Translations under genes and position numbers: made by a program | The notes under the pieces: generated by a model | Told to the model about the DNA's origin: nothing | The model's input: the letters and a program-made list of their open reading frames with translations, nothing else | Database searches by the model: none | NCBI GenBank assembly: GCA_002989075.1 | Contig: PSQN01000006.1 | Coordinates: 1,302,001 to 1,366,000, forward strand | Reading direction: 5' to 3' | Length of the DNA: 64,000 nucleotides | From: Arthonia radiata | Lineage: Eukaryota; Ascomycota; Arthoniomycetes; Arthoniales; Arthoniaceae | Shown: piece by piece, positions 1 to 38,265 of the stretch | Position numbering within the stretch: the first letter of the stretch is position 1 | Layout of the letters: each line of letters begins with the position of its first letter

Positions 1-441
1 GTCTGGCAGTCATTCCTTTGAGTAATCGTTGTATTTGAGTCAGCGCGACGCTGCTGGCGAGGGTACTATCTAAATTACTTAGCCAGTCTCTGGAGTAATC
101 GATTCTATGTCTTCAGTGTTCTCCACGAAACTAAAATGTTTCTGTCGGGCATTTGGTGCCTTAAATATCGGGCACGCAGAAAATGCCATAGCAACCAAGA
201 TGCGTATCTTAACATCATGGCTCTGACAAGCTTCAAGATCGCTAAAAGATGGCAGGAGCGACTGTCATTCATGCAGGTTTGGCTGAAAATCGGCAGCACC
301 TTGCCCACAGATACAAGACGAGCCTCACTTCACACAGCTCCTGCACTGAATCTCACCCACTTGAGACTTTATGCCTGACTCACGACCCGTTAGCCTTTTT
401 CGGCTTTCAGACAGCCCTTGCGAATTTTCTGTTTTGTTGCA
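1..441. other. No gene seen
   Basis: I see no convincing coding signal here. The short open frames overlap each other in several frames and none has splice signals or recognisable protein character. It probably holds the promoter of the gene starting at 442. Confidence 0.5.
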
Positions 442-1868
442 ATGAACTCTTTGAAGCGCAAGCGCTCCGAAACGGAGCTCCAAAATGAGGATTCAGACAC
501 GTTTACAGAGACCCAGCAAGCTCTGACCGAGAAGAACTTGGAAGAGCACACCCAATTATCGAGCGGACGAAGGTCGAGCAGCGGCGGCATGCCAAAGATG
601 TCCTCTTCCTCGAAGAAGTCTGGCACCGGCGCCTCCGATTCAAACCGCAGCGAGACACCCACAAGCATAGACAGTGCGGCTCGAACGCTCGAAAAGTATT
701 GCATCTACCATGATAGTGGAGCCAGCATGCCCAAAGGTAAGCGCACTGCAGTCCTGCTACGAACTTGCAAGCGTCTGCTCGATATGGAGGCTCTCTGACT
801 GCTCCAAACTAGTCCTCGTGGACTTCATTGCAAGCATTACCTCGTTCAGGGAAGGCACCCCCTCACCCCAATCGCTAAAGGTCGCAATGTCGAACAAGAA
901 AACCATGTTCATGTCCGAAGCTCAGCAAATACACGACCTTGAAGAACACCTTGGCTACAAGCCTGAGCTAAAAGGAGGCGAAAAGCATATCGCCCGTGAG
1001 CAGGACCGCCGCTGGCACAAAGAGGCCTTTCCCAATATTGATCCCTACGAGCCGAACGAGGAAATCAGGGAGGTAAGCCGAAGAGCATCCCCTCATTACA
1101 TACTGTGCTTTCGGAGCTATGGTCGGGCAGCGCGCGCCGGCCTTGTCCCACAATGCCTTGTTTGATCTCGAACTCCGGAAGGGGCTGTGTTGACGTCTTG
1201 TTTACAGGCTTACGCCAAAGAACCTCCGGCTCCCTCACCGGCTCCCGACGTTGAATACGGTCACACCGAGACTGCGTTCACTGACCAAGAGCTCAAGATC
1301 ATTAAGCACGTCCTGCCGAAGGAGTGCTGTGTTTATCCAGGCGAGCCGTTCTTCCCTTTCTGGTGCAACCAATGGAAGAGTGAGGCAAAATTCGGCAACA
1401 TGTTGAAAGCAAACATGCAAGCATTGAGGGATGGCGCAGCTGCAGTCTATTCACTCTGGGAACTCTACCAGTCTAGGAATGTCACATCTACGGCGGCAGA
1501 TACTGCAGGTAAGCTTTTTTTCTCCTAAGTCAGGACTCGAGTGGGACTAAGATAGTATGAAAGCATTCACGTCCTGCGTTGATGGACGGCACATCGAGAT
1601 ACGTGTCCACTGGCGCAGCTATAGCGAGGGAAAGTCAGGCTCTAATGATCGACCGTCCCTCTCGTGGGAATGCGCCTTGATCGCTAGTGCCAGGCTGAGC
1701 AATGAGCAGGAAGTGTACCAGGTTAGAGGCGTCATCTACAAAATTCTTGACTGGGCAAGGGATGTACGCCTTCTGGCTATCAAAAACCTGTCGCAGATGA
1801 AACAACGCCAGCCAACATCATCACAGGCATCTGCGGGGTCGAAGCGGAAAGGCGATTTCCGTGAGTAA
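442..1868 (+). CDS. Fungal protein resembling DUF7924 (PD-(D/E)XK-like), four exons
   Basis: Exons 442..736, 813..1072, 1208..1508 and 1552..1868 join in frame into about 390 aa; all three introns are GT-AG. The N-terminus is basic and Ser-rich (MNSLKRKRSE), suggesting a nuclear location. The third exon carries PFFPFWCNQWKSEAK followed by a helix rich in Ala and Leu, and the fourth carries DGRHIEIRVHWRSY. This order (hydrophobic strand, E-x-K, long helix, then an IRIYGHY-like strand) resembles fungal DUF7924 proteins, whose fold has been linked to restriction-endonuclease-like enzymes. That assignment is from memory of the family pattern, so the function is open. The stop lies inside a GTGAGTAAG donor-like string at 1861, so a further 3' exon (perhaps in 1925..2140, with a very acidic tail) is possible. 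Confidence 0.6.
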
Positions 1869-2442
1869 GCTCGAGTACCAACCGCGTTGCGTGGTAGATT
1901 CACAGCCTACATAACTAAGGTCTTATGAGTGAAACGCCTGTGCACCATCACTTGCTTTCGTGCTCTCTCACAGTAACAAAAATCTTGTCCGTGCTCTGGA
2001 TTTTTCACCTCACTGGACAGCGTCACTTGAAGATGCTATTGGATCCCATCTGCCTGCGCCGTAGATGCCAAGCGCACTGCTGCTTGTCGGCCGCTGCACC
2101 AGTCAACGACGCCAATGAAAATGATGATGATTATGCTTAGACGGGTTGCTGTCATGCCCGCGGTGATCCTTCTGTAGGATTATCATCCTGTTGCTATACT
2201 TAGCAGCCAATCAGATTAAGGGTGGGCAGATGGTATGGCACCTCACTACTTTCACGAACCATAAAATAGTCGATACTATCTGCCAGTCGACCAGACCGGA
2301 GCGCTTGGCGTCGGCGGCAGCGATATGTTGCTAATCTAGGTAGATGGTTACCAGATACCAGCGACAAACTAGTCGTTGGGAATACTTAGTAGTTGAGAAC
2401 CAGCATGTCGGTCGAAATCCATGGATACCCAAATTTCAGCAG
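1869..2442. other. Intergenic, possible extra 3' exon of the preceding gene
   Basis: A stretch ending at 2140 encodes an acidic tail (NDANENDDD) and could be a terminal exon of the gene at 442..1868. Otherwise I see nothing before the conserved block at 2443. Confidence 0.35.
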
Positions 2443-2504
2443 CAGGAACATGTCTCACTGCGATGCATACACTTTCTGTTTCACGAAGGAGCGCTCTACG
2501 TGTC
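2443..2504 (+). promoter_or_regulatory. Conserved upstream block, copy 1
   Basis: It contains AGGAACATGTCTCA at the left and GCGCTCTACGTGTC at the right, the same two anchors seen at 5203, 6229 and 6924. It ends 176 bp upstream of the small-protein start codon at 2680. This is the most diverged copy: the middle CTCGCGA core is not recognisable. Confidence 0.6.
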
Positions 2505-2679
2505 TATGTCGTATCGGACATGCTGTCCTACACCGATTTTATCAAAAATTATTATATATCCACAACGCGAGACCCAGCTCACTTAACTATAAACTTATCT
2601 TATTACCATCACAACATTAGCCTTCAGTAAACCCCCTTCCTTGTTTAGATCGTTAGACCTACTCAGCTACAACACCACC

Positions 2680-2928
2680 ATGTCCAGCGCCAAATCTCAA
2701 CACAAAGACGATATTCAAAAGGAAGTGGACGGAGCAGTGGCGAAAGAGGGCTATTATGGGCTCGGTCCTCTACGTAAGATAGTCAACGCTCTAAAGAAGG
2801 CCGTCCCTCATGAGAAACATCACAAATTTGGCTCTATGACGAACAAAGAGGTGCATGATGAGTACCAGACCCGTATTGACGACAAGGCGAGGGACATGAC
2901 GGGTGAAACAGGGACTTCAGACATGTAG
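2680..2928 (+). CDS. Small paralogous protein, member A (82 aa)
   Basis: A single-exon gene of unknown function. It belongs with the proteins at 6467 and 7157: shared motifs are QHKDDI near the N-terminus, a G-x-x-P-[LI]-R-K helix, P-x-x-KH-x-[KE], and TNKEVHDE near the C-terminus followed by an I-x-x-K and TGE. It is hydrophilic, has no signal peptide, no Cys and no membrane segment, so it is probably a soluble cytosolic or nuclear helical protein. The start at 2680 is chosen because ACCACCATG fits a good context and aligns with the ACCACCATG of the member at 7157. Expression is probably driven from the block at 2443..2504. Confidence 0.75.
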   Translation: MSSAKSQHKDDIQKEVDGAVAKEGYYGLGPLRKIVNALKKAVPHEKHHKFGSMTNKEVHDEYQTRIDDKARDMTGETGTSDM

Positions 2929-3202
2929 CTTTACAAACCTCGTGAAGCTTACTCATTCATGAAGCGAGATACGTTATCTTTTGAAATACGTTCACTAAGA
3001 TCAACCACCGCGCGTTCTGTTATTCATAAGACTGTTTCATTAAATGGAGCGGAGTACGTTCCGGAGATCAGTCACTTGGATGAAAGCCATTCACGACGTA
3101 AGGATTTTCCCGTCTATGTCGTAGTGAGAGTTTCTCGAGAAAGCATCCAATTTGAGTGGGACCGCGAGAGTCAGCGTGTTAGCATAATGCTACTAGTAAC
3201 AT

Positions 3203-4562
3203 CTATACCAGCTCGGCCTCTATCACCGACTCGAAGGCAAGCGGGCTACTATAAATCCTGTTGATCTTGAATCCCGACCCACTCAGGATGGTCGTCCACT
3301 CGTCAGCGGTTCCTGTCACTGTCAGCATACGTTGTTCACTCATATCAAAAGTAGTAGATTGAGCACTTACTCTCATGGGCCGAGCTCATTGCCATCATCG
3401 TGATGTCGCAACAGCTCTTCACGCCTGCGCGTTCATTCGCATCCATCACGATCTCGTGGATTAGCAACTTGCTGTGACCGCGCTTCATTGCCGGCTTGAC
3501 GTTGTCCAAGATCTTCTTACAGTCAGAGTCAGGCCAGTCGTGAAGGATGAAATGGCTGCCTTATGTTAGTCATCATCTTGGCGAGACTTGACGATGGAGC
3601 TCACAAATAGTACGCTGCGGCACCCTCGACCAGCTGAGGCGTGAAGAAGTCATACGGCATGCGCTTAATGCCCGTGTCGAGAGTCGTGATCGTGTCCAGG
3701 ACTGCTGGACGATCTTGCAGGACGACCCGGCCAGCTGAATTCGGATGAGCGCGCAAGAAGCTCGCGCTATCGTGACCGACGCTTCCACCGCAGTCTACGA
3801 GGACTGTTTGATCTCCGGATGCCACCTTGATGAGCTCACTAGATGGGTAGATATCCGAAAGCGGCGGTCTATTAGCGGCGTATGCACCCATGGCCATTCC
3901 CAGCGGAGCTTCTTTATCGGGGTTCGTTTTTAGCCAGTCCCAGAAGGCCTTACCAGTCATGTGACCCCAATTGCCGCTCGCATCGTTCGGATTCTGGTAG
4001 TTAATGCTGGCGATGTACTTGGGAAGATTCATCATCACGGGTCCATTGATTGAGTTGAACATGTCAGGAATACCGGAAAGCGGGGGCTCTGCAAGCGCTG
4101 ATGTGAACGGAGACAAGCTGTAGACTCTGGGCTTAGTCTCTTCAAGCATCCTTGTGCCGCTCAGGTTGCTCAGTACACGCCCTAGAGGACTCAGTCAGCA
4201 GGCTCGCAACAGACAAGCGGCGGTTACCGTGAACGGCGAGGTTGAGCAGACTTACGAAGCAGGACAGGATCGCACGACACCAGCTTCAGTAGCTCGTCCT
4301 CTGTCTTGGGTCCTTCGCCTGCTGCTCTCCATTTCTTGAAAAGGTCCAGGTCTGTCGCGATCTTCAGACAAGCCATTCGCGTCGGGTGGATCCAAACATT
4401 GTCAAGTGCAGTCTCCCAAGGGGTCTGTAGTCGAGAGACGAGCCTCTGCGCCTCGGCAAGTGCGTTCACTCGATCTAGCTCGGAGCTGAATGAGCGTTTA
4501 TCGATGGCTTGAAGCTCCGACATGATGTCTGCAGCGCCATCAGTGCCGACATTGACGTACAT
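3203..4562 (-). CDS. SAM-dependent O-methyltransferase (secondary-metabolite type)
   Basis: Exons 4562..4256, 4181..3605, 3555..3371 and 3312..3203 join in frame to about 392 aa, the normal size for fungal O-methyltransferases of the sterigmatocystin/caffeate class. An N-terminal helical dimerisation region is followed by the SAM-binding loop LVDCGGSVGHDS (variant of VDxGGGxG), then HFILHDWPD carrying the expected catalytic His, and the C-terminal signature ERTADEW, ending FESVIEAELV. It should transfer a methyl group from SAM to a hydroxyl of a small aromatic or polyketide substrate; the substrate cannot be read from sequence. No polyketide synthase or P450 lies nearby, so it is not in an obvious metabolite cluster. 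Starts at 4562 or 4523 (MSELQ) are both possible. Confidence 0.88.
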
Positions 4563-5202
4563 CTTGCCTGGGTGAACGGTTTTAATGTGCAGGTGGGGAT
4601 ACAGAGTGAACACAAACAGAGGAATTGCTACCGTGTGAGTGAATATCTAGTATTGAATAATGGGGGCTGGCACTTAGCGCTAGAAGAACTTGCAAGCATC
4701 ATCTCAACTCTTCCGCTGCGGCTGAGTTATTTCAAGAAGCCAGCGCAAGTGCTGTCAGCTGATTAATCTAACACTGCCGCGCTGCTGATTATCCTACCCG
4801 CCCAGCGCCGAGGAATTGCGCAAGTTCGCGCGGTTCATCATTGATATTGGCGGTCGTTTGTGTGGACACCAAATATGTAATGCGTGTACAAGCCGCATTG
4901 ACGTGGCCTGTCCTCGTTCTCCGCTCATGGCAAACGCCAGCTGAGCTCTATGTACGAGCCGTGTGTAATCTTCCGCACATGGGGCTATGCCGCTGGAGGT
5001 TACATGCCCCAAGCCGAGTGCATCTTTGCGGTACTGCTACACTAAAGGAATTTTGTGTCTAGCTTATGGGTCATAGATTGTAGAGTAAGGCTGTGCGGTT
5101 TTGGTCAAGAGAAGAGAGAGGAAATGAGAAGGGAAGGAGTGGGAAAACAGACGGGGAGGAAACGCACTAGGCCTTGTCAGGTCTAGCGTGACTGCAAGAC
5201 GA
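4563..5202. other. Intergenic, purine-rich tract
   Basis: No gene seen. A strongly purine-rich run (GA-rich) occupies about 5105..5160, just upstream of the conserved block at 5203. Confidence 0.45.
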
Positions 5203-5267
5203 GATAGGAGCATGTCTCAGACTCTCCGTACACAATCCATTTCGCGACGGCACGCGCTCTACGTGTT
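5203..5267 (+). promoter_or_regulatory. Conserved upstream block, copy 2
   Basis: It carries GATAGGAGCATGTCTCAG at the left, TTCGCGACGG in the middle and GCGCTCTACGTGTTC at the right. It is very similar to the copies at 6229 and 6924. It lies 347 bp upstream of the next start codon (5614), about twice the spacing in the other three copies. Confidence 0.7.
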
Positions 5268-5407
5268 CGAAATGTATCAAAGCGCTACACACACGTACCG
5301 TGTGATGTGCACTTCGTAGTTGTGCAGGTCTTACGAGCCATGCGCCTATCGCAGCATGAACCGTTGATACTGTAAAGGCCCCTCAGCTCGCTGGACAGTG
5401 CCAAATT

Positions 5408-5436
5408 CTGTCCCAAAACCTGTCCCAAAACTGTCC
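5408..5436. repeat. Short direct repeat, CTGTCCCAAAA
   Basis: CTGTCCCAAAA occurs at 5408 and 5420, and a third partial CTGTCC follows at 5431. It lies between the conserved block at 5203 and the gene at 5614. Confidence 0.5.
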
Positions 5437-5613
5437 GTATATCGGCCAATCCGCGATTGTCTATGTGTTCAATTGGTCTCATGCATGACATGTTACAGCC
5501 AGCCCGCGAGCATACATTGGGAAGCTACACTCCAGCTTCTCACCCTACTTACAAAGCGTTTCACCCCGACCTTTTAGCTTCACAAAGACATCTATAACAG
5601 CAGTCTTCAAACC

Positions 5614-5910
5614 ATGTCCGACCCAGCGGCCTTATGGGCTTCTTCATATCCAGAGAGGAGGGCAGAGTACAAGAGGAGCTTTCGTGAGACGTTCGAGGGA
5701 ACAGCACCGGAAATCATCCACGAGACTATCAAACAATTCCGCATTGGCGGCGAGGAGTCTTGGCAGGAGCATCTCAAGAACGGTACCACGGACGACAAAC
5801 ATCCACAACGCCCATTAGTGACACACCGGCTATTGCACAATATGCACATGGAGTTTTTAGCTGTTTGCCACGAGGAAGTGGCTAAGAAATCGGAGAGTCG
5901 TGGTGATTGA
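5614..5910 (+). CDS. Small hydrophilic protein (98 aa), possible distant member B of the small-protein family
   Basis: A single-exon gene with start context AACCATG. The sequence is charged, helical, and has no signal peptide or membrane segment. Similarity to the neighbours is weak: DDKHP followed after about eight residues by H-x-L-x-H and then a Glu/Lys-rich tail, in the same order as KHPEFHALTN and HDEQ in the protein at 6467. It stands directly downstream of a good copy of the shared block, which supports membership more than the protein sequence does. Function unknown. Confidence 0.6.
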   Translation: MSDPAALWASSYPERRAEYKRSFRETFEGTAPEIIHETIKQFRIGGEESWQEHLKNGTTDDKHPQRPLVTHRLLHNMHMEFLAVCHEEVAKKSESRGD

Positions 5911-6228
5911 CCTGTGCTGTGCTGCGTGTAGATGGGCAGACCATGTGGAGGTTACTTGAGAAGCTACAATGCATCGGGTTGCGTTGCCCTTCATAACTTT
6001 TGCTATGCGTTCGGCCACAACGTGCTGCCGGGAAGTTTGCTATTCACAACGTGACATAACCGATGGTTGAAGACAAGAGCTGGTGTGAGCACGTAAGCTG
6101 GTCTTTATGCACGTCACAGCGCAATGGGCGCAGTCGCGTGTGTAAACTATAGCACGATTTCATTTGCCGGGAAGACCCAAAGTACAGTCTGAAGCTCCGA
6201 CGGCCAAAAGAGTGTCTTGCAGGACAAG
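5911..6228. other. Intergenic with second shared upstream motif
   Basis: Around 6025..6043 lies CTGCCGGGAAGTTTGCTAT, which recurs as ACTGCCGGGAGGGTTGCTAT at 6837..6856 upstream of the next family member. No gene seen. Confidence 0.5.
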
Positions 6229-6290
6229 ATAGGAGCATGTCTCACAATCCGCATACCATCCATCTCGCGACAGAACTGCTCTACGTGTCC
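6229..6290 (+). promoter_or_regulatory. Conserved upstream block, copy 3
   Basis: It carries ATAGGAGCATGTCTCA, then CATCTCGCGACAG, then CTGCTCTACGTGTCC. It ends 177 bp before the start codon at 6467, matching the spacing of copies 1 and 4. Confidence 0.75.
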
Positions 6291-6466
6291 ACTGCCATAT
6301 AAGCCTTACTCGTCACCTCTACCTCATAAACACATATCGAGAAACTCTTAAGCTCGTTGACCAAGATACCGCGTACCCCTCTTCCCACAATCAGCCAAAC
6401 ACGCACCCACTTCCACCCATTCTCACAGCAACCACCCAGCACACCCGCTCAACGAGCCCGCACATC

Positions 6467-6712
6467 ATGCCACTCAGCGAGGACGAGCTCCGCGCCCAAC
6501 ACAAAGAAGAAATCAAAAAGAGGGTGCACAGCCACGGCGACATCCTTACGCTGGACTCGCTGCGTCGGACCGTCAAGGTGGCCCTGGAGAGATCCACCCC
6601 TCACCATAAGCATCCCGAGTTCCATGCCCTAACAAACCAGGAAGCGCATGATGAGCAAATAAAGCATATCAGGGATAAGTCGACGGAGTTGACGGGGGAA
6701 CCGGGGGATTGA
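6467..6712 (+). CDS. Small paralogous protein, member C (81 aa)
   Basis: A single-exon gene of unknown function, clearly paralogous to the proteins at 2680 and 7157. Shared positions are AQHKEEI, LRRTV, a Pro then KHPEFHALTN, EAHDEQ, an I-x-D-K and LTGEPG. It is hydrophilic, probably all-helical, and lacks Cys, signal peptide and membrane spans. The conserved His/Asn/Asp/Glu cluster (KH, H-[SA]-L-TN, HDE) is the most constrained part and could be a ligand- or metal-binding or interaction surface; that is inference. Confidence 0.78.
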   Translation: MPLSEDELRAQHKEEIKKRVHSHGDILTLDSLRRTVKVALERSTPHHKHPEFHALTNQEAHDEQIKHIRDKSTELTGEPGD

Positions 6713-6923
6713 GGCGGGCGATATCTGTGTTGTCGTGTATAGCTGTAATATGTCTAGAGCCTGTGGAGCATAATTGGCTATCAAGCGCGTTGCGTTATTT
6801 TTCATGATATGTTTTGTTGAAGTCAGGTTACAGCGTACTGCCGGGAGGGTTGCTATACGTAGCTTAACATTACCGCTGCGTTTGGACATTTCGCCGCTTA
6901 AGGAGCCGCCGGGAAGTCGATGG

Positions 6924-6987
6924 GATAGGAGCGTGTCTCAGACTGTCCGCATTCCGGCTATCTCGCGACGGCGCGCTCTACGTGTCC
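6924..6987 (+). promoter_or_regulatory. Conserved upstream block, copy 4
   Basis: It carries GATAGGAGCGTGTCTCAG, then CTATCTCGCGACGG, then GCGCTCTACGTGTCC. It ends 170 bp before the start codon at 7157. Confidence 0.75.
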
Positions 6988-7156
6988 AGACCAGATTAAG
7001 CGTGACACCTTTCTCCGATCGCACCACGCTGAATCATCTCTCCGCAACTTGGAATCCTAACTTAATAACACTCCTGTATCACCACTCTTACAACACCATT
7101 TATCGACTCATACAAATATACCGCTATCTTCTCCGGACCTTCACAACCACACCACC

Positions 7157-7390
7157 ATGTCCACCGACCAAACCCAACACAAAACCGACATCAAAAACGA
7201 CGTGGACCTGAGGAGCGACGAAATTGGCGTCAAGCCGATCCGTAAAGAGGTCGAGGACTTCCTAAAGGGGTGCATTCCCGACATGAAGCATTCCAAATAC
7301 CACTCCTTGACGAATAAGGAGGTGCACGACGAGCAAATGATACACATCGGCGCGAAGGAACAATACTTGAAGGGTAAGGGGTTCTTGTGA
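7157..7390 (+). CDS. Small paralogous protein, member D (77 aa)
   Basis: A single-exon gene with start context ACCACCATG, identical to member A. Shared motifs are TQHKTDI, KPIRKEV, P-x-x-KHSKYHSLTN, KEVHDEQ and a short LKGKG end in place of LTGE-G. It is hydrophilic, without Cys, signal peptide or membrane segment. Function unknown. With members A and C it defines a family in which the KH...LTN[KQ]E[VA]HDE segment is nearly fixed while the first 30 residues vary in both length and charge. Confidence 0.78.
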   Translation: MSTDQTQHKTDIKNDVDLRSDEIGVKPIRKEVEDFLKGCIPDMKHSKYHSLTNKEVHDEQMIHIGAKEQYLKGKGFL

Positions 7391-8041
7391 TGATGGATTA
7401 GGTGGATCACGGCCTCGGGGCAGATGAACTTGGGTTGGGCGCTGCGTTGGTATCTGGTTCGCGGGAGTGGTGCATGCGAGGTGTAATGGGACAGTTTGGT
7501 TGCTGCGCTCCGGGCGATGAACATACCAAGTCCATAACTAAAATCCAAATGTCAGCACAACACTTTCTGAACAGCATTGCCATCAGAGTCCCCAGGGTCT
7601 TTACGCGCTTTTATTCTTCACCACCGCCGGCGAACGGGCTCTTTGTTGGGCCACACGATACCACAGAAGCTAAAGCATGGACTGTGGACTTACCCTAAGA
7701 AGAAAACGTCAGCACAGCCGCTTCTGGGGTTTGTTCGAATCTCAAGTGAAGTCTTTTGCAGCAACGCCAGCGCGCTAGTTGCCTGACAATGGTTTTGCGG
7801 CAAGAGAACGTGATGTGTGGATGCTCTGAGGCTTACGTTCCTCGCACGTCCGCCAGACAAGACCGTCTGTGGTTTGATCAAAGAGCTAACATCAGGACGA
7901 ACTGTGACCACAAGCTGCTTGGAATCTCACACTTCTTCCGCGGTCTTTCACTGCTACTCCCCGCCTCATCCTGAGCCCTCGCCCGTCCCCGCGTCCTTAA
8001 ACACACCCATAACACATCACAGCCCCACAATAAACGTAGTA
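7391..8041. other. Intergenic between convergent genes
   Basis: I see no gene. The strand-overlapping open frames lack start context and protein character. Confidence 0.45.
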
Positions 8042-9494
8042 CTAATAAACCCCATCACTCCTCCTCTTCTCAATCTGCTTCGACGTCATCATCGCCGCCC
8101 TCCGCGCTTCAAGCTTGTGCAGTTCATCCGCGTGCTTGTCCACCCAGCTTAGCAAGCCATACTCGCCAGCAAGTCCAATCTGCAGAATGCGCTTATCCGC
8201 GAAAGCACCGTCGTTGAGGGTACCGTGGCTTGGATGAAGATCACCGGGATCGTAGTCGATGTACAAACTGCCGTTGCTATCGAGTTTGACCCAACGCCTA
8301 AGCGCGCGCGCGATCTGCTCGACCTTCGGCTTCGATGGCTGGCATTTGAGATTGGGGAGGTGGAATTCGATGTGTTCCCATTGGAGCGCCTTTTGGTAGG
8401 CTGTGATGATGTTCTCGTACTCGACAGTCTTCCCGAAGAAGCGGACCGCTTCAAGAGCGATGATTTCGCGCACTTCGAAGTTTCGCCATTTCTGCGTTTG
8501 CTCAGTCGTCTCATCATCAAGTCGAGCAACGACGTGGTGTGCTTGCAGGAAGGTTGAGAGGCCGCTCATTGGCGTTTCCCTTAGCAGGTTGTAAATACGC
8601 GGCACCATCTGACGGCGCTCAAAGGTGAGGCGCTCGCCTCTGTTGAGGTCCTTCAGCTTGAGAGCCGACCGATCGAGGAAGCGGCTGGAGCTCAGCCATG
8701 TTGCGATTGCGTCTTCGTTGTCAAAGCCCGCTTTGTGAATTGCAGCGTCCAGGCCCAGGAAGTCGAGCATCTTGGCATGGTCATAGGTCAGCTCGATGGT
8801 AGCGGGGGTGGTGCAGCGGATGTCTTGTGCTGTGCAGTCCTAAGCAAGGTCAGTTTTGCCAAACTCGAGCTGGACGGATACTCACGTCCACCATCGGCAC
8901 CTTCAGAACAAACGCATCCTGCTCAACCACCAGTCCTAAGTGGCGATGCAGCAGGTGCAAGATGTTCCTGATGTCGCCATAGCTGTTGGTAGCGTACAGC
9001 CAGTCGAAGAGTCTGGCCGACATGACGCGGATGTCCAGCTGGACGTACTTATCGCTCACCTCTGGATCATTGCGTAGGCAGGTCTGCGCCAGTGGGACGG
9101 CTAGACTGCAGGTTCTGCCATCATGGAAAGCGCCAGCTTGCTTGCGCTCATGCGGGTCTTTGCTGTCAAGCCCTGTGTTGCGGCTGAACACGCGCCCGAA
9201 GAGGCGCTGCCCGGCTTCAAAAATCGTGCCGTGGTCAAGTGTCTCGATGTCCTTCGGTACGTAGAGATTAAATCGTTGAACCATGCGGTGCTGCACTAAC
9301 GTGTAGTGCATTGAAACTCCACGGTCCCATGGATCAGCGACCAATCTGTCGATGTCGCCTAGATACGGCAGTGGCTGCACCCTGCGGAACTATTGTTTGA
9401 GAAGTTTACTGAATTCGTTGGTAAGAGCTAAATATTGCGCAGTGTTGAGGCGAGGATAGTCAAAGCCTCGGAGGCGCATGCGAGTACCACCCAT
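8042..9494 (-). CDS. Unknown fungal protein with an in-frame amber codon near its 5' end
   Basis: Exons 9494..8886 and 8839..8042 (intron GTGAGT...TTAG) would give about 468 codons. No domain is recognised; it is soluble, mixed alpha/beta, and has a conserved-looking core (LGDIDRLVADPWDRG, DGRTCSLAVPLAQTCLR, LLHRHLGLVVEQDAFVLKV). The reading frame opens at ATG 9494, runs 34 codons (ending NEFSKLLKQ), meets TAG at 9392..9390, and then continues in the same frame as FRRVQPLPYLGDIDR without interruption. No plausible intron of normal length removes the TAG. The first ATG after it is at 9311 (MHYTLVQHRM). So the gene is either recently damaged, read through or edited, or it starts at 9311. C-terminal half rich in Arg/Lys. 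Confidence 0.6.
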
Positions 9495-13020: not shown

Positions 13021-14655
13021 TCATTGTCTTACTTCCACATGCTCGACTCTTCCGCTCTTTTCGCCCCTTTCACTGTCAGTGCCATCGCTTCGGGCCGCTT
13101 CACTGTCTTCTCGCAAGATGTGGCTGTGGTCTTGCAACTCCATCATCACGACGCCATGTGCCCTTCTTGCGGATTTAACCTCGAAGATCCGCTCCATGGC
13201 CTCCAGCGGTACGCCCTTTGTCTCTGGTACCAGAAACCACACAAACACAATGCTGCACAGCATCAGCGCAGCAAAAAAGAAGTACACGCCGTAGCCCATA
13301 TGAGTGAACATCTGTGGGGTGAACCTGCTGATGATGAAGTTCCAGAACCAGTTGCTCGCCGCAGCCGATGCTTGCCCAAGCGCGCGGGTCTGTAAGGGAA
13401 AGATCTCGGAATTGATGACCCAGGGCGTCCCATTCCAGCTTGGTGTATAGAATGCTGTCCAGAGGTAGAAGAAGAGGATGGCAGCGACCGAGAGCGAGTT
13501 GGGGGACGTCCGCTTGACAGAGGGTGGATTGATTTTGACAAAGGCGCCAATGACCCACATGCAGACGCTACCGCCAAACGCGCCATATATGAGGAGATTT
13601 CGTCGTCCAAGGCGATCGATAAGATAGAGAAGCCAAAAGAAGGTAATGACCGTCTTGACAACTCCATACAGGCCTGTAGAGAAAAACGTCGAGTTCGTAC
13701 CGACGAGACCAAGCGATTTAAAGACTGTCGGCGAATAGTAATTAATCGCATTAATACCGGATCCGTTCTGAAATAGGAAGAGCATCGATCCAAGGAAGAA
13801 GCGGTAGGTGATACGGCTGTCGCGAAATACGGCCTTGACTGGGGCCCAGAAACCAGTACCGATGCCCGCAACCTGCTCGGCAATAGATCTGTCAATGCCA
13901 GCGACTTCTTCCACGATGTATGCATGGCTAGCAGGCAAGTTGCGTATCCACGCGAGCTTCTTGATGCCGGCGTCGCGACGCCCTTTGCTAATGAGCCATC
14001 GGGGCGATTCCTTGATCCAGAAGCAGCCAACGAGCAGGAGACCGCCGGGGATAAGCTGGACAGCGAAAGGTATGATCCATTGCTTGCGGCTTGGGGGAAG
14101 CGTCTCAGAGATGCCGTAGTTGATCCAAAATCCGACGAGGCCGCCAATCTGCCACCCAAGCTCGTAGATGCCCACGAGTCGACCTCTGACGGCCGGTGGC
14201 GCCAGTTCGGAGATGTAGATAGGAACGAGATTGCTTGCACCACCGATCGCTAGACCAGCCAGCACTCGGCCACCGTAAATTGGTCCTAGACCGACGTCGC
14301 GACTTGCTGCTAGCATAATGCCGGACCCGAGGACGAAGATGGCAGCAAAAAGTAGCAGGCCTAGTCGGCGGCCCAAGTAATATCCGCCTGCATAGCCTGC
14401 CCATGCTCCGAAGAACGCGCCAGCCTGATACACAGAGACAATGTTTGCGCTCGTGAGATCCTTCTTTGACTGGGAGAGCGAGGCGAAGTCAAACTCTTTG
14501 ACGAAAGATGGGAGCGCCAGTGTCGTTCCAATGAAGGCAGAGTCGTAGCCGATCATGCAGCTGGCGAACGATGCCACTCCTGCCAGACAATACACTCTCC
14601 AGTTGTACACGGCCTTTGGCGTTGGCCGATCTTCGACGAGGGTAAGGATACCCAT
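13021..14655 (-). CDS. qutD: Quinate permease (MFS sugar-porter family)
   Basis: One exon, 544 aa, close to the roughly 533 aa of Aspergillus QutD and Neurospora qa-y. It has twelve hydrophobic segments, the sugar-porter signature GRVLAGLAIGGASNLVPIYI, the RG-R loop (AVRGRLVGIYELGWQIG), ESPRWL after segment 6, and PETKG after segment 12. It should import quinate by proton symport at the plasma membrane. The start at 14655 (MGILTLVEDRP) is preferred over the upstream in-frame Met at 14886 because MGIL-x-x-VEDRPTPKAVYNWR is the usual N-terminus of quinate permeases. It is divergent from the quinate dehydrogenase at 15030, with 374 bp between start codons, so one regulatory region probably serves both. 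Confidence 0.93.
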   Translation of the reverse strand: MGILTLVEDRPTPKAVYNWRVYCLAGVASFASCMIGYDSAFIGTTLALPSFVKEFDFASLSQSKKDLTSANIVSVYQAGAFFGAWAGYAGGYYLGRRLGLLLFAAIFVLGSGIMLAASRDVGLGPIYGGRVLAGLAIGGASNLVPIYISELAPPAVRGRLVGIYELGWQIGGLVGFWINYGISETLPPSRKQWIIPFAVQLIPGGLLLVGCFWIKESPRWLISKGRRDAGIKKLAWIRNLPASHAYIVEEVAGIDRSIAEQVAGIGTGFWAPVKAVFRDSRITYRFFLGSMLFLFQNGSGINAINYYSPTVFKSLGLVGTNSTFFSTGLYGVVKTVITFFWLLYLIDRLGRRNLLIYGAFGGSVCMWVIGAFVKINPPSVKRTSPNSLSVAAILFFYLWTAFYTPSWNGTPWVINSEIFPLQTRALGQASAAASNWFWNFIISRFTPQMFTHMGYGVYFFFAALMLCSIVFVWFLVPETKGVPLEAMERIFEVKSARRAHGVVMMELQDHSHILREDSEAARSDGTDSERGEKSGRVEHVEVRQ

Positions 14656-15029
14656 TTTGCCAGGAATGCTGCGTCCCGCCGACTTTGTGTCGTTTGCGGC
14701 GTTGTTGTCGAAGCGCAGACAATGTCTATGGAGCGACAAAGGCGCGAACAGCGTGCATAGAAGGTTCGTGTAGACATTCTGCTGTAACTTTAAGCTTTTG
14801 CACCCTGAATGCGCCGTCTGCTTGTCGTGTGGGGTTGTTGTTCCAGAAGTCTTCGCTTGCATGATACTTCGCGGGAGGTATTTCATCGGCAGCTGACCTC
14901 GGTCCTGGATCGGCCATCAACACGAAAGGAGTAAAGCCCCTGTACCTGACTCGCTCCGCCTTAATTAGCCTTCTAGTGAAGAACCGTATTGTCGAAAGCG
15001 ATGAACGATGACATTGATAACCCATCTTC
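14656..15029. promoter_or_regulatory. Shared divergent promoter of the quinate genes
   Basis: The 374 bp between the permease and dehydrogenase start codons must hold both promoters. In Aspergillus and Neurospora the pair is induced by quinate through QutA/Qa-1F. I do not see a clean GGATAA-N8-TTATCC palindrome here; only single GATA-like strings occur (for example GATAA at 15016). Confidence 0.55.
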
Positions 15030-16022
15030 ATGTCTCAGGATTCGAAGCCATACGGACGCCTTTTCGGGTACCCACTTGCTCATACCTTGTCACCGTTGCT
15101 GCATCGTACAATTTTCCAATCATTAAGCCTACCATGGGAATATGAAGTACTCGAGTCTCTTGACGTTGATGCTTTTGGGCGGCTGTTACAGGATCGAAGA
15201 TGTTATGGTTCAGCCATTACCATGCCGCACAAGGTCGCTATCATACCTCACCTGGACGAGCTGACCCCAGAAGGCCGAGATGTAAGCGCATGCAATACGA
15301 TCTTTTTCAAGGAGGTTAGAGGAACGCGGAGGACCATTGGGACCAACACGGACGTCGTTGGTGTGAGAGAAGCTTTCATGCGTAGCGTAAAAGCTCCTGA
15401 GAAGGTATTGCAGACACTGCATTGGCGAGTGCCTTGCACCAGGGAAGCTTACCATTCTCAGGTCTTCTTTGATCGCCCAGCATTGGTCATAGGCGGAGGA
15501 GGAGCAGCTAGAAGTGCAGTGTACGCTCTCACCAAGTGGCTGCGTTGCTCTCAGATCTACATCGTAAACCGTGACGATATGGAAGTCGAGGCCCTTGTCG
15601 CTGCATGCAAGCTGTACGCACCAAAGATCACTCATCTAAAGTCCCGTCAGCAAACTAGAGAGCTCGAAGGCCCGGGAGCAATAGTCGGCTGTGTCCCAGA
15701 TATAGAGCCAGTGACACCCAGTGAAAAGGAGCTCCGCGACATTGTCAAGGACTTGCTCGACAGACCGCACAAGGGTGCTTTACTGGAGATGGCGTATCAT
15801 CCAAAGCCTCTCACGCAGCTTGCAGAACATGCAGCTCAGGTTGGATGGCAAGTCATTCTTGGGACAGAAGCAATGATATGGCAAGGACTGGAACAGGCGC
15901 GCTTGTGGACTGGCCTCGAGATGGATAGACTCCCGATTGAACGCGTCAAAAGAGCGATTGCTGAGGAGCTTGCACGCTCACAAGTGCCAGAACTGAGCGG
16001 CATGGAATCTTCGAAGATATAA
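15030..16022 (+). CDS. qutB: Quinate/shikimate dehydrogenase, catabolic
   Basis: An NAD-dependent oxidation of quinate to 3-dehydroquinate, the first intracellular step of quinate use. Seen: substrate loop YPLAHTLSPLLHR (Thr in place of the first Ser of the SxS pair), AITMPHKVA with the catalytic Lys, CNTIFF, GTNTDVVGV, and the nucleotide loop VIGGGGAARSAVYAL. The C-terminal helix ILGTEAMIWQGLEQARLW is typical. Positions 15405..15461 read open but look like a 57-nt intron (GTATTG...CTCAG, a multiple of three); removing it gives APEKVFFDRPALVIGGGG, the expected family spacing, and about 311 aa. It is divergent from the permease at 13021..14655. Other qut genes (dehydroquinase, dehydratase, regulators) are not in this window. 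Confidence 0.92.
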   Translation: MSQDSKPYGRLFGYPLAHTLSPLLHRTIFQSLSLPWEYEVLESLDVDAFGRLLQDRRCYGSAITMPHKVAIIPHLDELTPEGRDVSACNTIFFKEVRGTRRTIGTNTDVVGVREAFMRSVKAPEKVLQTLHWRVPCTREAYHSQVFFDRPALVIGGGGAARSAVYALTKWLRCSQIYIVNRDDMEVEALVAACKLYAPKITHLKSRQQTRELEGPGAIVGCVPDIEPVTPSEKELRDIVKDLLDRPHKGALLEMAYHPKPLTQLAEHAAQVGWQVILGTEAMIWQGLEQARLWTGLEMDRLPIERVKRAIAEELARSQVPELSGMESSKI

Positions 16023-32138: not shown

Positions 32139-32879
32139 ATGGCCACCCCAATGTCTTACCCGAGCTACAGCAAGGCTCTACAAGCCACCACACACGAAAG
32201 AATCGAAGGAGCCGCAAAGCCTGGCTTAGTAGCTGACGGCCAAATCACTAAACCATTCAATCTACCATCTGAGCTCATATCGGTGGTTCTTGAAAACGGA
32301 CTAGAGACCGAACTCTTCAAGCTAGTTTCTGGACCCTACAAAGAACCAGAAACACACAAGTACAAGCACATCTTTGATATGGGCTATACCATTAAAAGCG
32401 GCGTCGGCATCCGTTCCACCCTCAAAGTCCCAGCAGCAGATGTACTGACCTTACCCCACTACGCCAGCTACTACGTGAGCGCCCTCAAATTTGCCTCACT
32501 GTCCTACGACTGCGCACGCGAGGTCTCCAAGGTGCTCGAGCGCCATCTAGCTGTTGTCGAACAAGATCTCAAATTGAACATCCACCAGTACCGGATGTTC
32601 AGCAGCCGCGCCAACAAACTCTTAGCAAAACATTACTACGTTGTGTACGATCCATTTCACCCACCACCGGCAGAGTATGTTGAGGCAATGGAAGAGAGCT
32701 GCGAGGCAATTGCGCACTGGGAGCCGCTGATGAAGTGTGCATCTGCTAGCAGGTTTGTGCTGAAGCTTTGCATGACGAAGGTTGAGCGCATTCTTGATGG
32801 GAAGGCGGCGGAGAAGAGTGCGGGCGTTTGGAAGTACAAGGCTACTGCTTATTCGCTCCGAGCTGGTAAGAAAGCGTGA
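32139..32879 (+). CDS. Array paralogue 1 (246 aa), unknown family
   Basis: A single exon, no known domain. It shares three blocks with the six following genes: an N-terminal FNLPSELISVVLENGL then SGPY, a central LPHYASYYVSALKFASLS then REVSKVLERHL, and a C-terminal RFVLKLCMTKVERILDGK. It is the most divergent member (it lacks the KPLPxLP lead-in, having KPFNLP). Hydrophilic to neutral, probably all-helical, no signal peptide or membrane segment. The first block (LP-x-E-[IL]-x-x-x-[IV]) looks a little like an F-box start, but the F-box core Trp/Leu pattern does not follow. Confidence 0.72.
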   Translation: MATPMSYPSYSKALQATTHERIEGAAKPGLVADGQITKPFNLPSELISVVLENGLETELFKLVSGPYKEPETHKYKHIFDMGYTIKSGVGIRSTLKVPAADVLTLPHYASYYVSALKFASLSYDCAREVSKVLERHLAVVEQDLKLNIHQYRMFSSRANKLLAKHYYVVYDPFHPPPAEYVEAMEESCEAIAHWEPLMKCASASRFVLKLCMTKVERILDGKAAEKSAGVWKYKATAYSLRAGKKA

Positions 32880-33458
32880 GACGACACTGTGGCGTGTAAG
32901 ATTCGATTTTCCTTTTAGTCGGCATGGCTAGAATGTAATTGAGAAAGAGACGGTAGGCCGGTCATAATCGCAAGATGAAAGAATTGTCTACATTCATTTG
33001 GGTTCGTGAAAACAAGACTCGCATTTGTATATTTACCCTACACCTCTTTGCTCTAGGTAAGTCGGGCCATCCTCTCACACAATATAACGTCACAACAGTT
33101 GGCTAATTCTGCTTTTACAGAAACGCAGCGCTTGTCCAAGACTGGCTGGCTGTCGTGCAGTATCCGGCCTTGATATTTGAAAAACCCGCACTCTCCCTTG
33201 AGTCTACGGCGATGACAGAACACTAGTCGATAATGCTGGGCATTTGCACTGTGCGATTACGATGAAGCCGTAGTGCTGCCACATGGCACGCAGCTGAAAT
33301 ACTCATGTCGTTCGCTGAACGCTTTTGTCACTCTTCTCGACATTATAGGAAGCAGACAGGACTCTGCTCTTACTATCGTCATCTGACAGGTACTCACGCC
33401 TTCAACAACGCAGGCGGACTTACGCAAGCTCTCTCAGCTGTCACCGTATCCACGCAAG
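32880..33458. other. Intergenic within the array
   Basis: No gene seen. The AT-rich part is at 32930..33110. Confidence 0.45.
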
Positions 33459-34271
33459 ATGGACGCAAAACCCGCCAGCCACTCTAGTAGTGCTGATGCG
33501 ACTGCCAACACCACGAAACCTCTTCCGCAGCTTCCAGTCGAGATCCAGTTCCAGGTTCTCGGATTCAACATCGACCACGCCTACGAAACACTAGCGTCAG
33601 GGCCTCTCGAGGCAACCCGTCCCTATGACTTCAACAACGTGCAGCTGCGATCCAAAGTACAGTACCCTTCAAGCCGTTCTCTGACTTACGCTGCAGGCTC
33701 AGAAGACGACAACCGCGAGCCAGTCACCCTGAAAACCCTCCTCGGCTTCCCAAACATCGCAGCTTTCCACCATACTATACTGGCATACGCATCTCTCTCC
33801 CACGGCTTCGCGGAAGAAGTCTACAAAATTCTTCAGCAACAGCGCGACATTGCTTCTGACGCGTATCTAGCGGTCGCACGCACGACTCTCACCTTGCAGT
33901 CCCAGGCAACAGATACTTTCCGGCAGATGATGCATGCTGGACCCTTTACGTACGCCCAAGCACGCACGAAATTTCGCGAAGCGAACTGCACTTGCGACAA
34001 GGCTTTTCAAGACGCAGAGAAGGCAGGTGTAGCATTGTTTGTTGTGGAAAGCTGCTTAGAGTGGGTGGAGGCGCTACTGCGAGGCGGACGAGTCGACAAG
34101 GGCCGTGGCTGGTCGTATGGACCGTGCGTCGCAGAGGTGAAGCCGAAAGGACAAGTCCAGCGTCCCAAAATCGAAGCCAAGAGTAGTAGACTTGCTCTTG
34201 TCCCTCGCGCCGATTTTGGCAAGGGGGGATTTTCAAAGTGGAGGTTCGAGACTGACCTCCGTCATCGTTAG
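33459..34271 (+). CDS. Array paralogue 2 (270 aa), unknown family
   Basis: A single exon. Block 1: KPLPQLPVEIQFQVLGFNID then ASGPL. Block 2: LKTLLGFPNIAAFHHTILAY with ASLSHGFAEEVYKIL. Block 3: GVALFVVESCLEWVEALLRGG. The region between blocks 2 and 3 is helical and charged. The C-terminal 40 residues are basic (VKPKGQVQRPKIEAKSSR). No signal peptide or known domain. Blocks 2 and 3 are shared strongly with paralogues 3 and 5. Confidence 0.75.
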   Translation: MDAKPASHSSSADATANTTKPLPQLPVEIQFQVLGFNIDHAYETLASGPLEATRPYDFNNVQLRSKVQYPSSRSLTYAAGSEDDNREPVTLKTLLGFPNIAAFHHTILAYASLSHGFAEEVYKILQQQRDIASDAYLAVARTTLTLQSQATDTFRQMMHAGPFTYAQARTKFREANCTCDKAFQDAEKAGVALFVVESCLEWVEALLRGGRVDKGRGWSYGPCVAEVKPKGQVQRPKIEAKSSRLALVPRADFGKGGFSKWRFETDLRHR

Positions 34272-34871
34272 GGCAGGCGCTCGCTTTGACTTCATGCTGC
34301 TTCAAGCAGCTTCTCGGTAACGCGAGATCACTACAAGCCAGCTATTCGCTGCGCGTAGATATTCGGTCTCAGCCAGATCGAAAGGACAGAACGGCCTGAA
34401 GGGAGCTCCGACCTCTCTGTAAGTATTACAAGCGCATCAATAGCTCGCTCTTTCACAGCTGATAATCGAATAAAATGCAATCGTGTTTGAAAAAAATCTA
34501 AAACCCGGTTCTGTCGAGCATATCGCAGCCCTTATAAGTAAGTACGTTCGTTACTAGGCTCTGTATCACGCCACATCAACATTGATGAATGCGTCACGAT
34601 CTGGAAATGTTCAATCAAGCGCCCGCAAAATATGCCTCGCAGCAGTATATCTCAGAGTGCGAAGGAAGTCCAAACATACTGCGGACAGACGTACGCACTG
34701 TGTGGTTGCCATCACAGTTCTGTGGAGTTTTGCCACGCGCTATAAGACTTCGGACTCCGAGCTATCTTGCAACTCCCCAGATCTTACTGAGCATACAACA
34801 CAACCAGTCAGAAAATCATTCATCATTCACGGCAAACAACCCATTTCATTCAAAATCTCAAACCCCGAATT
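34272..34871. other. Intergenic within the array
   Basis: Two overlapping plus-strand frames near 34582..34882 run into the next gene's start but are mutually exclusive and look non-coding. No gene called. Confidence 0.4.
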
Positions 34872-34874
34872 GTG

Positions 34875-35891
34875 ATGGGTAACACTACCTCCAAGCCGCA
34901 GGTTCCCATTGTGAGCGAGACTACATGCCACGAACCTTTCCCTCTAGATCCTGAGACTAGGCTTCAGATTGAAGACTATACAATCAAGTTGCAGGCACAC
35001 GCAAGGGGCGAAAACGTATTCGAACAATCTATTCTCGACCGTCCCGAAATCAAGTTTCTGATGGATCAGGCTCGTTCCCTGTTTCACGAAAATAGGCGTC
35101 GAGTTGATGACTCTGAAACCAATTTGGCGGCATACGCAATTGGCGCAGGCGCGTCCCGCCATCCTCCCGGTCAAGGTCCCGAAATTGAGCATCTGATAGG
35201 TAATATTGCATCCGGGCCGCAGACTTGCACAACAGGCGCAACCACATCTCATCACCCTCCTCCTTCCCTCGGAACGACAAAAGCGCCACCAGAGCTGCCG
35301 TTAGAGCTCCAACTTCATATCATCGGCTCTGGTCTTGAGGATGCGCTTGCAGCTCTAGTGAAACATCCCCTCAATACCCTCAGTGATGCCGAATTTGATC
35401 GCTTCATGGAACTCGTCCACAAATCCCGCCTATCAACCCCCCGCCGACGAGCACGTCTTCCTCCAGGCGATCCTCTGGCTACCTTTGAGCTGTTGACCCT
35501 CAAGAAACTTCTCGACTTTCCGAACGTTGCAACGTACCACAAAACTGTCCTCACTTGCGCATCCATCTCCCGAAGCGCTGGCGAGGAAGTTCACGAGATC
35601 CTCAAGCGTCAGTTTGACAGTATCGAGAATGCGAACCAGGTGCTGTTAGGCAAGGTTGATGGTTTACTGGATCAGGAGTGTGACGCGCGACATGAGCTTC
35701 AGCTTGCGTCGCCGGATACTGTTGGCGAGGCAAATCGGAACGTCCGTGAGGTGCAAGACGCTTGCAAAAAGGCTCGCACTGAGATGGAAAAGGTCGGTCT
35801 CGCGCTCTTTGTTGTGTATGAATGCATGAAATGGGCCGACTCGCTGTTGGAGGGCGTGACACTCAATAGGGGCCAATACGGCCTGGTGTGA
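34875..35891 (+). CDS. Array paralogue 3 (338 aa), possible N-myristoylated member
   Basis: A single exon; two ATGs in tandem (34872 and 34875). Starting at the second gives MGNTTSKPQ, a strong N-myristoylation consensus (G2, small residues, Ser/Thr at 6, Lys at 7); the first would block it. An N-terminal extension of about 130 residues is unique in the array and contains a weak internal duplication (RPEIKFLM and later GPEIEHLI). Then block 1 ELPLELQLHIIGSGLEDALAAL, block 2 LKKLLDFPNVATYHKTVLTC with ASISRSAGEEVHEILKR, and block 3 GLALFVVYECMKWADSLLEG. No other domain recognised. Confidence 0.73.
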   Translation: MGNTTSKPQVPIVSETTCHEPFPLDPETRLQIEDYTIKLQAHARGENVFEQSILDRPEIKFLMDQARSLFHENRRRVDDSETNLAAYAIGAGASRHPPGQGPEIEHLIGNIASGPQTCTTGATTSHHPPPSLGTTKAPPELPLELQLHIIGSGLEDALAALVKHPLNTLSDAEFDRFMELVHKSRLSTPRRRARLPPGDPLATFELLTLKKLLDFPNVATYHKTVLTCASISRSAGEEVHEILKRQFDSIENANQVLLGKVDGLLDQECDARHELQLASPDTVGEANRNVREVQDACKKARTEMEKVGLALFVVYECMKWADSLLEGVTLNRGQYGLV

Positions 35892-36529
35892 CCGTTGAGC
35901 CACAAGAAAACATGAAGAAGCTAGCGACCCAAGCAGCGAGTTGAATGCTGGACCCGAAGTGGCGTCAGCAACTTGCTTGCAGGCATGCAGGGACTTCCCT
36001 TCGTATGAAAGATCCGTATCCAGCTTTGGTGGGTCGAGCATATGTGTTGACGCAAGCCGCTCCAAAGATCCCTCATTGACATTGGACAGCCGTCATCTGG
36101 GTGCTTGAGCTTCCGGGCTGTAGCGTTGCAGTCGACTTGGTGAAGTATTTCTATTTGGGGCCACGGACCCCTAATTAGGCGCAGCAGCAGATGCATGAAG
36201 CAGCGCTGGAAGGAGGACTGAACATTGTCAGTGTAGAACGAACGAAAACTGCGACAACAAGATCGCCTAACCGATAGTGTTGATGATGATTCAGAGAGAA
36301 TGTTTGAGGCTGCGTAGAGAGACTGTGCGTTCGAGGAACCGGTATGTTGGAAATGTTAGCACATCTGTGAAGTTCAGTAATAACTTCTCAAGAGCTTCGC
36401 ACTACAATGTGCAACTGCTCTTATGTAACCTTTACCTCTGCCTCTCCCGGAAGCTATAAGACTTCCGACACTTAGCTTATCTTGTGCAGCTCCTCTTCTA
36501 GCTGTTTGCAAACCATTCGCATCTCTCAG
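35892..36529. other. Intergenic within the array
   Basis: No gene seen; it runs up to the left end of the MITE at 36530. Confidence 0.45.
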
Positions 36530-36786
36530 CAGAGTTGGCAATAAGTCAAACGGATCAGTTCTTGACCCTGGCCTGATCGGCCTGGATAAAAAAAAGAAGA
36601 GGACTGATCTGACTCATCCGGCCAGATATTTGATTATCCGTCAAATGTTGCCCTGATATTGCCCCAATATATGACATAAAATTGACCTGAACTGACCCGG
36701 ATGACTCCCAGGAGCGGACTGATCCGCCTGATAACTAACCTGGCTAGCACACCTGGCCTGAATGACCTGACCCATTGCCAACTCTG
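36530..36786. mobile_element. Non-autonomous hAT-type MITE (about 257 bp)
   Basis: The ends are inverted copies of CAGAGTTGGCAAT (36530..36542 and, reversed, 36774..36786). The start CAGAG-TGG-CAA is the classic hAT terminal pattern. Flanking 8-mers TCTCTCAG (36522..36529) and TCGCACAG (36787..36794) match at six of eight positions, as an aged 8-bp hAT target duplication would. The inside is full of degenerate CCTGAYC/GGATCAG words on both strands and has no coding capacity, so it would need a transposase in trans. Confidence 0.72.
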
Positions 36787-37021
36787 TCGCACAGTTTATT
36801 CACCTACCTCGAAAGCATATCTTACTGGTCAGTCCGCCAGCGTTGCCCAAGCACAGGCTTCTTGCAAGCTCTGAAATTTCTCCGCATGGGCTGTGCTGAA
36901 GTGATGTGTCTAACTGGCTCAGGGAATCTTGCTTTGTTTGCGGGAAAGGTACAATCTTCGTCGATTTGTGTTCATTGAAAATCATAGTGAACAAGCGCTA
37001 CGCAACCCGTGTCTACCGATA

Positions 37022-37738
37022 CTAGTCGGGGCGCTTAATCAACTCCAACTCGACTCGCATGTACTGGTGGATGTCCTCGCCAGCCAACAGTTTCTCCATG
37101 CACTGCGTGGTCGTCTCGACGACAAACGCTCCAATCTGTATCAATTGATACTCCTCGTATTTCTCCACCCAGGCCTCGCATACATTCATATAAGCAGTAG
37201 CCTGGTCAGACCACATCTGCGTGCCTGAACGCGCCTGACGTATCTTTCTAGTTGCGTCCTGATGCTCTTCTCCGCTATACCTGGCTTTCTCCAACGCACT
37301 TTGCACTGCCGAGTGTGCAGTGTCTCGATGCAGGCGCAAAATCTGCGTTACTTCCGTAGCATAGCTACATGATAGATCAGCATTTTTGAGAGCCTCATCA
37401 TAGTACATGCCGAATTGAGGGAGAGCGATAAACTTCCAAAAGGGGATCTTGCATGAGCCTAGGGTGATATGTTCCCTCCACTGGGCACAGGACGTCTGGT
37501 CCGTCAAGTCGTCTTGGCTGTCTGCGTCGCTGGCATTGTGTTTCCGGCGTGTCCCGTGTCCACAATTGTACTCAGGAGAAAGCATGCAATATGGTCCTAC
37601 AAAGAGGACTGGATACGCTTTATCAAGAGTAGCTTTAATTATCATGAGTTGGATCTCAAGAGGAAGTTGTGGTAGTGGTTTAGGCTTGCCTGCTTGTGGT
37701 GTTGCGCTACTAGCCGTGGTAGCGGTAGTGGGGTTCAT
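37022..37738 (-). CDS. Array paralogue 4 (238 aa), unknown family
   Basis: A single exon. The start at 37738 (MNPTTATTASS) is preferred to the in-frame Met at 37792 because it aligns with MDPNIAPQASS of paralogue 6, its closest relative. Block 1: KPLPQLPLEIQLMIIKATLD with VGPYC. Then DQTSCAQWREHI, shared only with paralogue 6 (DQMSCARWRRYI). Block 2: FIALPQFGMYYDEALKNADL and ATEVTQILRLH. Block 3: IGAFVVETTTQCMEKLLAGE. No known domain; soluble and helical. It lies on the opposite strand to paralogue 6. Confidence 0.75.
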   Translation of the reverse strand: MNPTTATTASSATPQAGKPKPLPQLPLEIQLMIIKATLDKAYPVLFVGPYCMLSPEYNCGHGTRRKHNASDADSQDDLTDQTSCAQWREHITLGSCKIPFWKFIALPQFGMYYDEALKNADLSCSYATEVTQILRLHRDTAHSAVQSALEKARYSGEEHQDATRKIRQARSGTQMWSDQATAYMNVCEAWVEKYEEYQLIQIGAFVVETTTQCMEKLLAGEDIHQYMRVELELIKRPD

Positions 37739-38265
37739 GGTTCGAAGCGTTGATAGAACAACTCTCTTTTTTGGTGTGCTGTGCTGGCGCAACGGCTGAG
37801 TCGTATCGGCTTTGCAATTTGTAAAGGTAGTAATAATAGTGTTGTAAAGAGGGGTCGTGCCTCGGGCAGAGCCGAAACGTACTTCAACGGCGCCCCTTCA
37901 GAGTACACAGTGGAGTACTGCTGTACGCACAGCGCCAACGCAAGACTCTCCAGGTTCGTTAGAAGAAGTTGTGTTATTTGTGTGAAGAAGCTTGCAGGGT
38001 CCAGACAGTCTACGTTTAGCTAACCTATGTTGTCTTTGTTGTCTGTGTTGCATGAGCTACTGCCCGCCGTACCCAAATAGACGAGATTGTGCTTACGTTG
38101 ATTTCCTTGAACGCCATGTACATGGTAACTTATCAATATTCACTCGGAAGCATCACAGGCAACATACAGTCAGCCCTCTAGCTCCGTCAATCCCGCGAAC
38201 CGTTCATTCATCATCTATCCCTCGTCACCAGCAGCCGCCTTCGCACCCTCATCATCCTCCCGATC
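37739..38265. other. Intergenic within the array
   Basis: No gene seen between paralogues 4 and 5, which run in the same direction. Confidence 0.45.

Follow-up and report, generated by a model that had tools for sequence, protein, structure and literature searches.

A conserved block upstream of four small genes

The 64-kb stretch of DNA analysed here, called the window throughout (G000:C13:1302001-1366000, from a genome of 33.5 Mb in 16 contigs), contains four neighbouring small genes, S1 to S4, each preceded by a copy of a DNA block of about 65 bp (b1 to b4). We propose, with a probability of roughly 0.7, that these are small protein genes of restricted lineage arranged in tandem, each of which would have a promoter-proximal composite upstream activating sequence kept by selection. 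As far as can be judged from sequence, this regulatory reading is the best supported, yet unproven, and it suggests a shared on-switch for the four neighbouring genes. The presence of the blocks, noted in a preliminary description of the window, was confirmed by alignment and by a profile. The regulatory role that the description attached to them stands in part, favoured by the conservation of the block and its confinement to these genes, and opposed by a member of the protein family on another contig that has no block. No description of the array or the block was found in the literature searched.

In pairwise comparisons among the copies, identity is 71–84% within the block against 47–54% at third codon positions. 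The block had been described as more alike than the spacer that follows it, and it is indeed conserved beyond both its flanks and the third codon positions; equal conservation of block and spacer was not seen. The locus combines a promoter element conserved beyond neutral sequence with neighbouring paralogous genes (S1, S3 and S4, with S2 probable), as a co-regulated paralogue array does. The blocks could instead be leftovers of tandem duplication or patches of gene conversion that have no regulatory role, and exchange of sequence among the copies by conversion could give the appearance of selection. The difference in identity argues against both, and the conserved patch ends at approximately the same places in all pairs and lies at the same position before each gene, which is not expected of conversion tracts. 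We regard such an origin as quite unlikely.

Within the genome, full blocks turned up only before S1–S4, and a wide scatter of blocks without small genes was not seen. No further full block was recovered by a 17-mer search with up to three mismatches (76 matches; reversed control, 54), a 3′ anchor search with up to three mismatches (21; control, 38), a two-anchor pattern (3 matches, b1–b3; control, 0) or DNA similarity searches, in which b3 as query listed b2–b4 and b1 listed itself alone. Single-anchor matches were checked for the second anchor at the fetched loci (8 of the 76 for the 17-mer and 20 of the 21 for the 3′ anchor), and among these none besides b1–b4 carried it. Since the two-anchor and similarity searches each recovered only part of b1–b4, very divergent copies could be missed. 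One 17-mer match on contig C3, with a single mismatch, was considered as a dispersed block and rejected, having no second anchor and scoring 10.1 bits by the block profile. In other collections the two-anchor pattern matched once in viral contigs and six times in prokaryote genomes, all seven at 10.0 bits or less; by our own estimate about 50 chance matches were expected in the prokaryote genomes. As to whether the block always precedes this protein family, all full copies found stand before S1–S4, and the relative on contig C7 lacks it.

A fifth, degenerate copy, b5, was found by nhmmer with the b1–b4 profile in the window (14.3 bits, E 0.0021; next-best match, 3.8 bits). Scaled to the whole genome this score corresponds to about one chance match, and b5 gains its weight from its position, 143 bp before the S2 start codon compared with 168–176 bp at the other genes. 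With b5 as the proximal block of S2, the 347-bp spacing that had made S2 an outlier becomes that of a second, distal block. The features are listed in Table 1.

Table 1. Coordinates of the small genes, block copies and HacA consensus match in the window.
Feature	Position	Strand	Remarks
Block b1 (before S1)	2440..2506	+	alignment, profile; ATG at 2680 after 174-bp gap
HacA consensus, exact match	2519..2529	+	single occurrence in 64 kb; 161 bp before S1 ATG
S1, small protein of 82 aa	2680..2928	+	paralogue of S3, S4
Block b2 (distal block of S2)	5203..5269	+	alignment, profile; ATG at 5614 after 345-bp gap
Degenerate block b5 (S2, proximal)	5417..5470	+	nhmmer; ATG after 143-bp gap
S2, 98 aa, probable diverged paralogue	5614..5910	+	
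Block b3 (before S3)	6228..6291	+	alignment, profile; ATG at 6467 after 176-bp gap
S3, small protein of 81 aa	6467..6712	+	paralogue
Block b4 (before S4)	6924..6988	+	alignment, profile; ATG at 7157 after 168-bp gap
S4, small protein of 77 aa	7157..7390	+	paralogue; AlphaFold model

Anatomy of the block

The motif CTACGTGT is present in all four full blocks, and CTACGTGT(C), at the 3′ end, is the most conserved part. Sub-stretches in b3 include CTACGTGT, AGGAnCATGTCTCA and TCGCGA. In b1–b4 one end repeats the other imperfectly in inverted orientation (GGA-n-CAYGT against ACGTGTCC, by RNAalifold and by eye), with the last bases varying in b1 and b2, and the two ends are possibly two sites for one factor.

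These ends bear on two other readings. RNAalifold pairs them, and a block about 170 bp before the ATG could fall within a long 5′ leader, where it might be transcribed and act as an RNA element in translation or stability. No copy folds significantly better than its shuffles (z 0.68, 0.62, 0.20 and -0.89), only 1 of 11 consensus pairs has changed on both sides, and Rfam has no match in window positions 1-9000. With no stable fold and little covariation, a conserved RNA element was rejected as improbable. Inverted ends would also suit a piece of some miniature mobile element. Such elements are hard to reconcile with the copies found in 33.5 Mb, four of them full and one degenerate, which share a single array, one orientation and about one distance from the ATG, and no target-site duplication was seen on reading by eye, with no program used. 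Copy number, orientation and place make this origin very improbable.

A protein-coding block, as an unpredicted upstream exon or an upstream open reading frame (ORF), would account for the pattern in the inner 30 bases of b2–b4, which in one frame vary at 6 of 10 third positions against 5 of 20 first and second positions (p 0.07); this frame also reads similarly in the three copies, as TxRxxxISR. AGGA and GCTCTACGTGT lie 49, 50, 47 and 48 bases apart (remainders 1, 2, 2 and 0 modulo 3), and ATG is missing from b4. Because the conserved stretches fall in different frames among the copies, we give a coding block hardly any credence.

The small proteins

Sequence comparison bore out S1, S3 and S4 as paralogues, as had been claimed. 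By codon usage the genes rank 7 (S1), 14 (S2), 5 (S3) and 1 (S4) among the 100 ATG-initiated ORFs of 70–110 residues in the window. S2 is a probable diverged paralogue. Its similarity to S1, S3 and S4 is weak, and 9 of 1000 shuffles matched the C7 protein as well as S2 does; among 1632 open stretches outside the family it scores highest with the family profile, yet only at E 0.3, and a search of its own genome with S2 found no relative. The C7 protein (C7:53580-53828, minus strand; L032 1447-1695), a distant relative of S1–S4, has 83 residues and starts with MSAVDHES; its gene lies some 54 kb from one end of the contig, which is 0.94 Mb long. It matches S3 with E 2.7e-4, and with E 9.1e-5 in the reverse search.

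An AlphaFold model of S4 made from three sequences has a mean predicted local distance difference test score (pLDDT) of 89.9 and helices at residues 3-23, 25-37 and 53-73, with the family motif P-x-x-KH in the loop preceding the last helix. S2 modelled from its own sequence alone is weaker (mean pLDDT 70.3 for the best model and 51–61 for the remaining four) and has KHP in the loop before the last helix, as P-x-x-KH in S4. The small proteins look three-helical, and by eye they look cytosolic, with charged N-termini that have no hydrophobic stretch. The preliminary description suggested small regulators or stress proteins; for the latter there is a motif lead, and a helper role under stress is our guess.

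Relatives were not found elsewhere. S1–S4 have no Pfam-A match above the curated cut-off, the weak matches reaching at most 14.6 bits, all below it. Against a large protein set, which includes fungal proteins and in which genes as small as S1–S4 are often not predicted, the S1/S3/S4 alignment gave 14 candidates, none with E ≤ 1, and the C7 protein had no homologue. A protein-based search of prokaryote and viral DNA collections found no relatives, and solved structures gave no convincing one (a single match by sequence, E 0.46).

Candidate regulators of the element

In the mechanism that we consider, one or more activators would bind the element, and the genes would be switched on together. One candidate is a basic leucine zipper (bZIP) factor of the Hac1/HacA type, which acts in the unfolded protein response (UPR) and may bind CTACGTGT(C) at the block's 3′ end. 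The yeast Hac1 element is TACGTG (PMC509306, excerpt) and is quoted elsewhere as CTACGTGTCT (PMC4836707, excerpt); b1 has CTACGTGTCT exactly, b3 and b4 have CTACGTGTCC, and b2 has CTACGTGTTC. The Aspergillus niger HacA consensus, CAN(G/A)NTG(T/G)CCT, occurs at 47 of 598 induced genes against 457 of 13156 others (PMC3472299, excerpt). A site of the yeast UPR element 2 (UPRE-2) type is present in every full block, and the exact HacA consensus only at S1, where it starts 13 bp past b1 and so lies outside the block. In b4, positions 6939-6948 (CAGACTGTCC) are identical to the initial 10 bases of the HacA-type site at the genome's BiP gene, and two of the ten HacA 10-mers in the window fall within the four 250-bp promoters (p 0.010). 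A HacA-type site could be an additional contact at S1, perhaps at S4.

We compared these sites with the genome's own endoplasmic reticulum (ER) genes, scanning 17 of the 32 loci from an ER-gene search; the others were mostly further exons of genes already covered. Three of the 17 have the HacA consensus: BiP at -230, calnexin at -208 (counted from a start codon that is provisional) and one PDI gene at -30. The remaining 14, two further PDI-like genes included, do not. BiP was identified from its translation by an HSP70 match, a hydrophobic N-terminus and an HSEL end; a pattern search found no KDEL-like ends. The comparison is mixed: S1 has the HacA consensus, like BiP, calnexin and that PDI gene, S4 has 10 of its 11 bases, and S2 and S3 are without it. 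Hac1/HacA as the activator remains tentative, with the odds clearly against it. The fuller proposal, a lineage-specific arm of the UPR in which orphan cytosolic three-helix proteins encoded in tandem would each be under Hac1 through a 65-bp composite of UPRE-2 and a partner site, is rather doubtful.

The same element could answer to another regulator, such as a spore-stage or developmental factor or a Gcn4-type bZIP, and we give this reading somewhat less than an even chance. A StuA-like site could presumably lie in TCGCGA, which is kept in b2–b4 and changed in b1. Dormant conidia of Aspergillus fumigatus are dominated by small lineage-specific proteins (PMC3424117, excerpt), and Gcn4 overexpression alone activates the yeast UPRE-2 (PMC509306, excerpt). 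A scan for sigma-70 promoters and terminators, inapplicable to a fungus, gave no more matches than shuffles.

Several observations weigh against selection for a shared activating sequence, and most of them against the UPR lead. The C7 relative has no block, TACGTG or HacA 10-mer within 600 bp; the proximal block of S2 is degenerate, and b5 carries CTATGTGT where the full blocks carry CTACGTGT. HacA 10-mers are absent from b1, b2, b3 and b5; of the four genes only S1 and S4 have one, at S1 next to b1 and not in it, at S4 within b4. There is no TACGTG within 1 kb before BiP or in the scanned DNA upstream of calnexin; the PDI gene has none closer than about 1.2 kb, a distance at which a cytosolic HSP70 gene has it as well. 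The UPR motif comparison was made after the block had been seen. In Ustilago maydis, 74 effector genes have predicted elements, and only 2 of these are UPR-dependent in expression (PMC4836707, excerpt).

The array is nevertheless rewarding for follow-up, for its orphan fold and its UPR lead. With four to five copies of the element in diverged surroundings, it is a small natural experiment that reveals which bases matter. It also draws attention to a family of orphan proteins whose fold is predicted with confidence and whose small size makes gene finders prone to miss them. ER stress would be a cheap test of what the family does, and a true UPR link would show the recruitment of new genes into an ancient stress response.

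Genomic surroundings

A methyltransferase-like gene of several exons, recognized by eye, separates S1 from S2 within the array (3345-4613, minus strand); the piece tried had no Pfam match. A 49-bp repeat, 76% alike, lies behind S2 and S3 (6017-6065 and 6830-6878) and is a trace of the duplicated unit. Farther along, a second tandem family of seven ORFs of about 180–340 residues, on both strands, has a common PLPxLPxExQ start region (32139-41498), and no common block was found in the DNA upstream of them. A sugar- or quinate-type transporter ORF stands beside a shikimate/quinate dehydrogenase-like ORF at 13021-16022 (by eye). The fungal placement of the window is based on one protein (57221-58573), whose closest match among the 120 listed is from Coniocarpon cinnabarinum (Arthoniomycetes, Arthoniales; 80% identity, full length), with Chrysothrix at 54% identity and many other ascomycetes also listed.

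Comparison with known systems

Tandem paralogues with a common promoter element are an already known kind of arrangement. The mig2 cluster of U. maydis resembles S1–S4 in consisting of small paralogues that lie side by side and seem to be controlled together, and its genes have a promoter element in common. The mig2 proteins are secreted, whereas S1–S4 have no evident signal sequence by eye. Three mig2 genes are among those with predicted UPREs (PMC4836707, excerpt). The conidial proteins of A. fumigatus are likewise very small and taxon-restricted, many without an assigned function (PMC3424117, excerpt), but they have no sequence link to S1–S4, themselves without a Pfam match above the cut-off. 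The likeness to Hac1/HacA elements, the yeast UPRE-2 and the A. niger HacA consensus (PMC509306, PMC4836707, PMC12310822 and PMC3472299, all excerpts), lies in CTACGTGT and in the HacA match beside b1. Unlike those elements, the array element is about 65 bp long and has two further conserved stretches, and the ER genes of this genome differ from the CTACGTGT blocks in having the HacA type, not TACGTG, near their starts.
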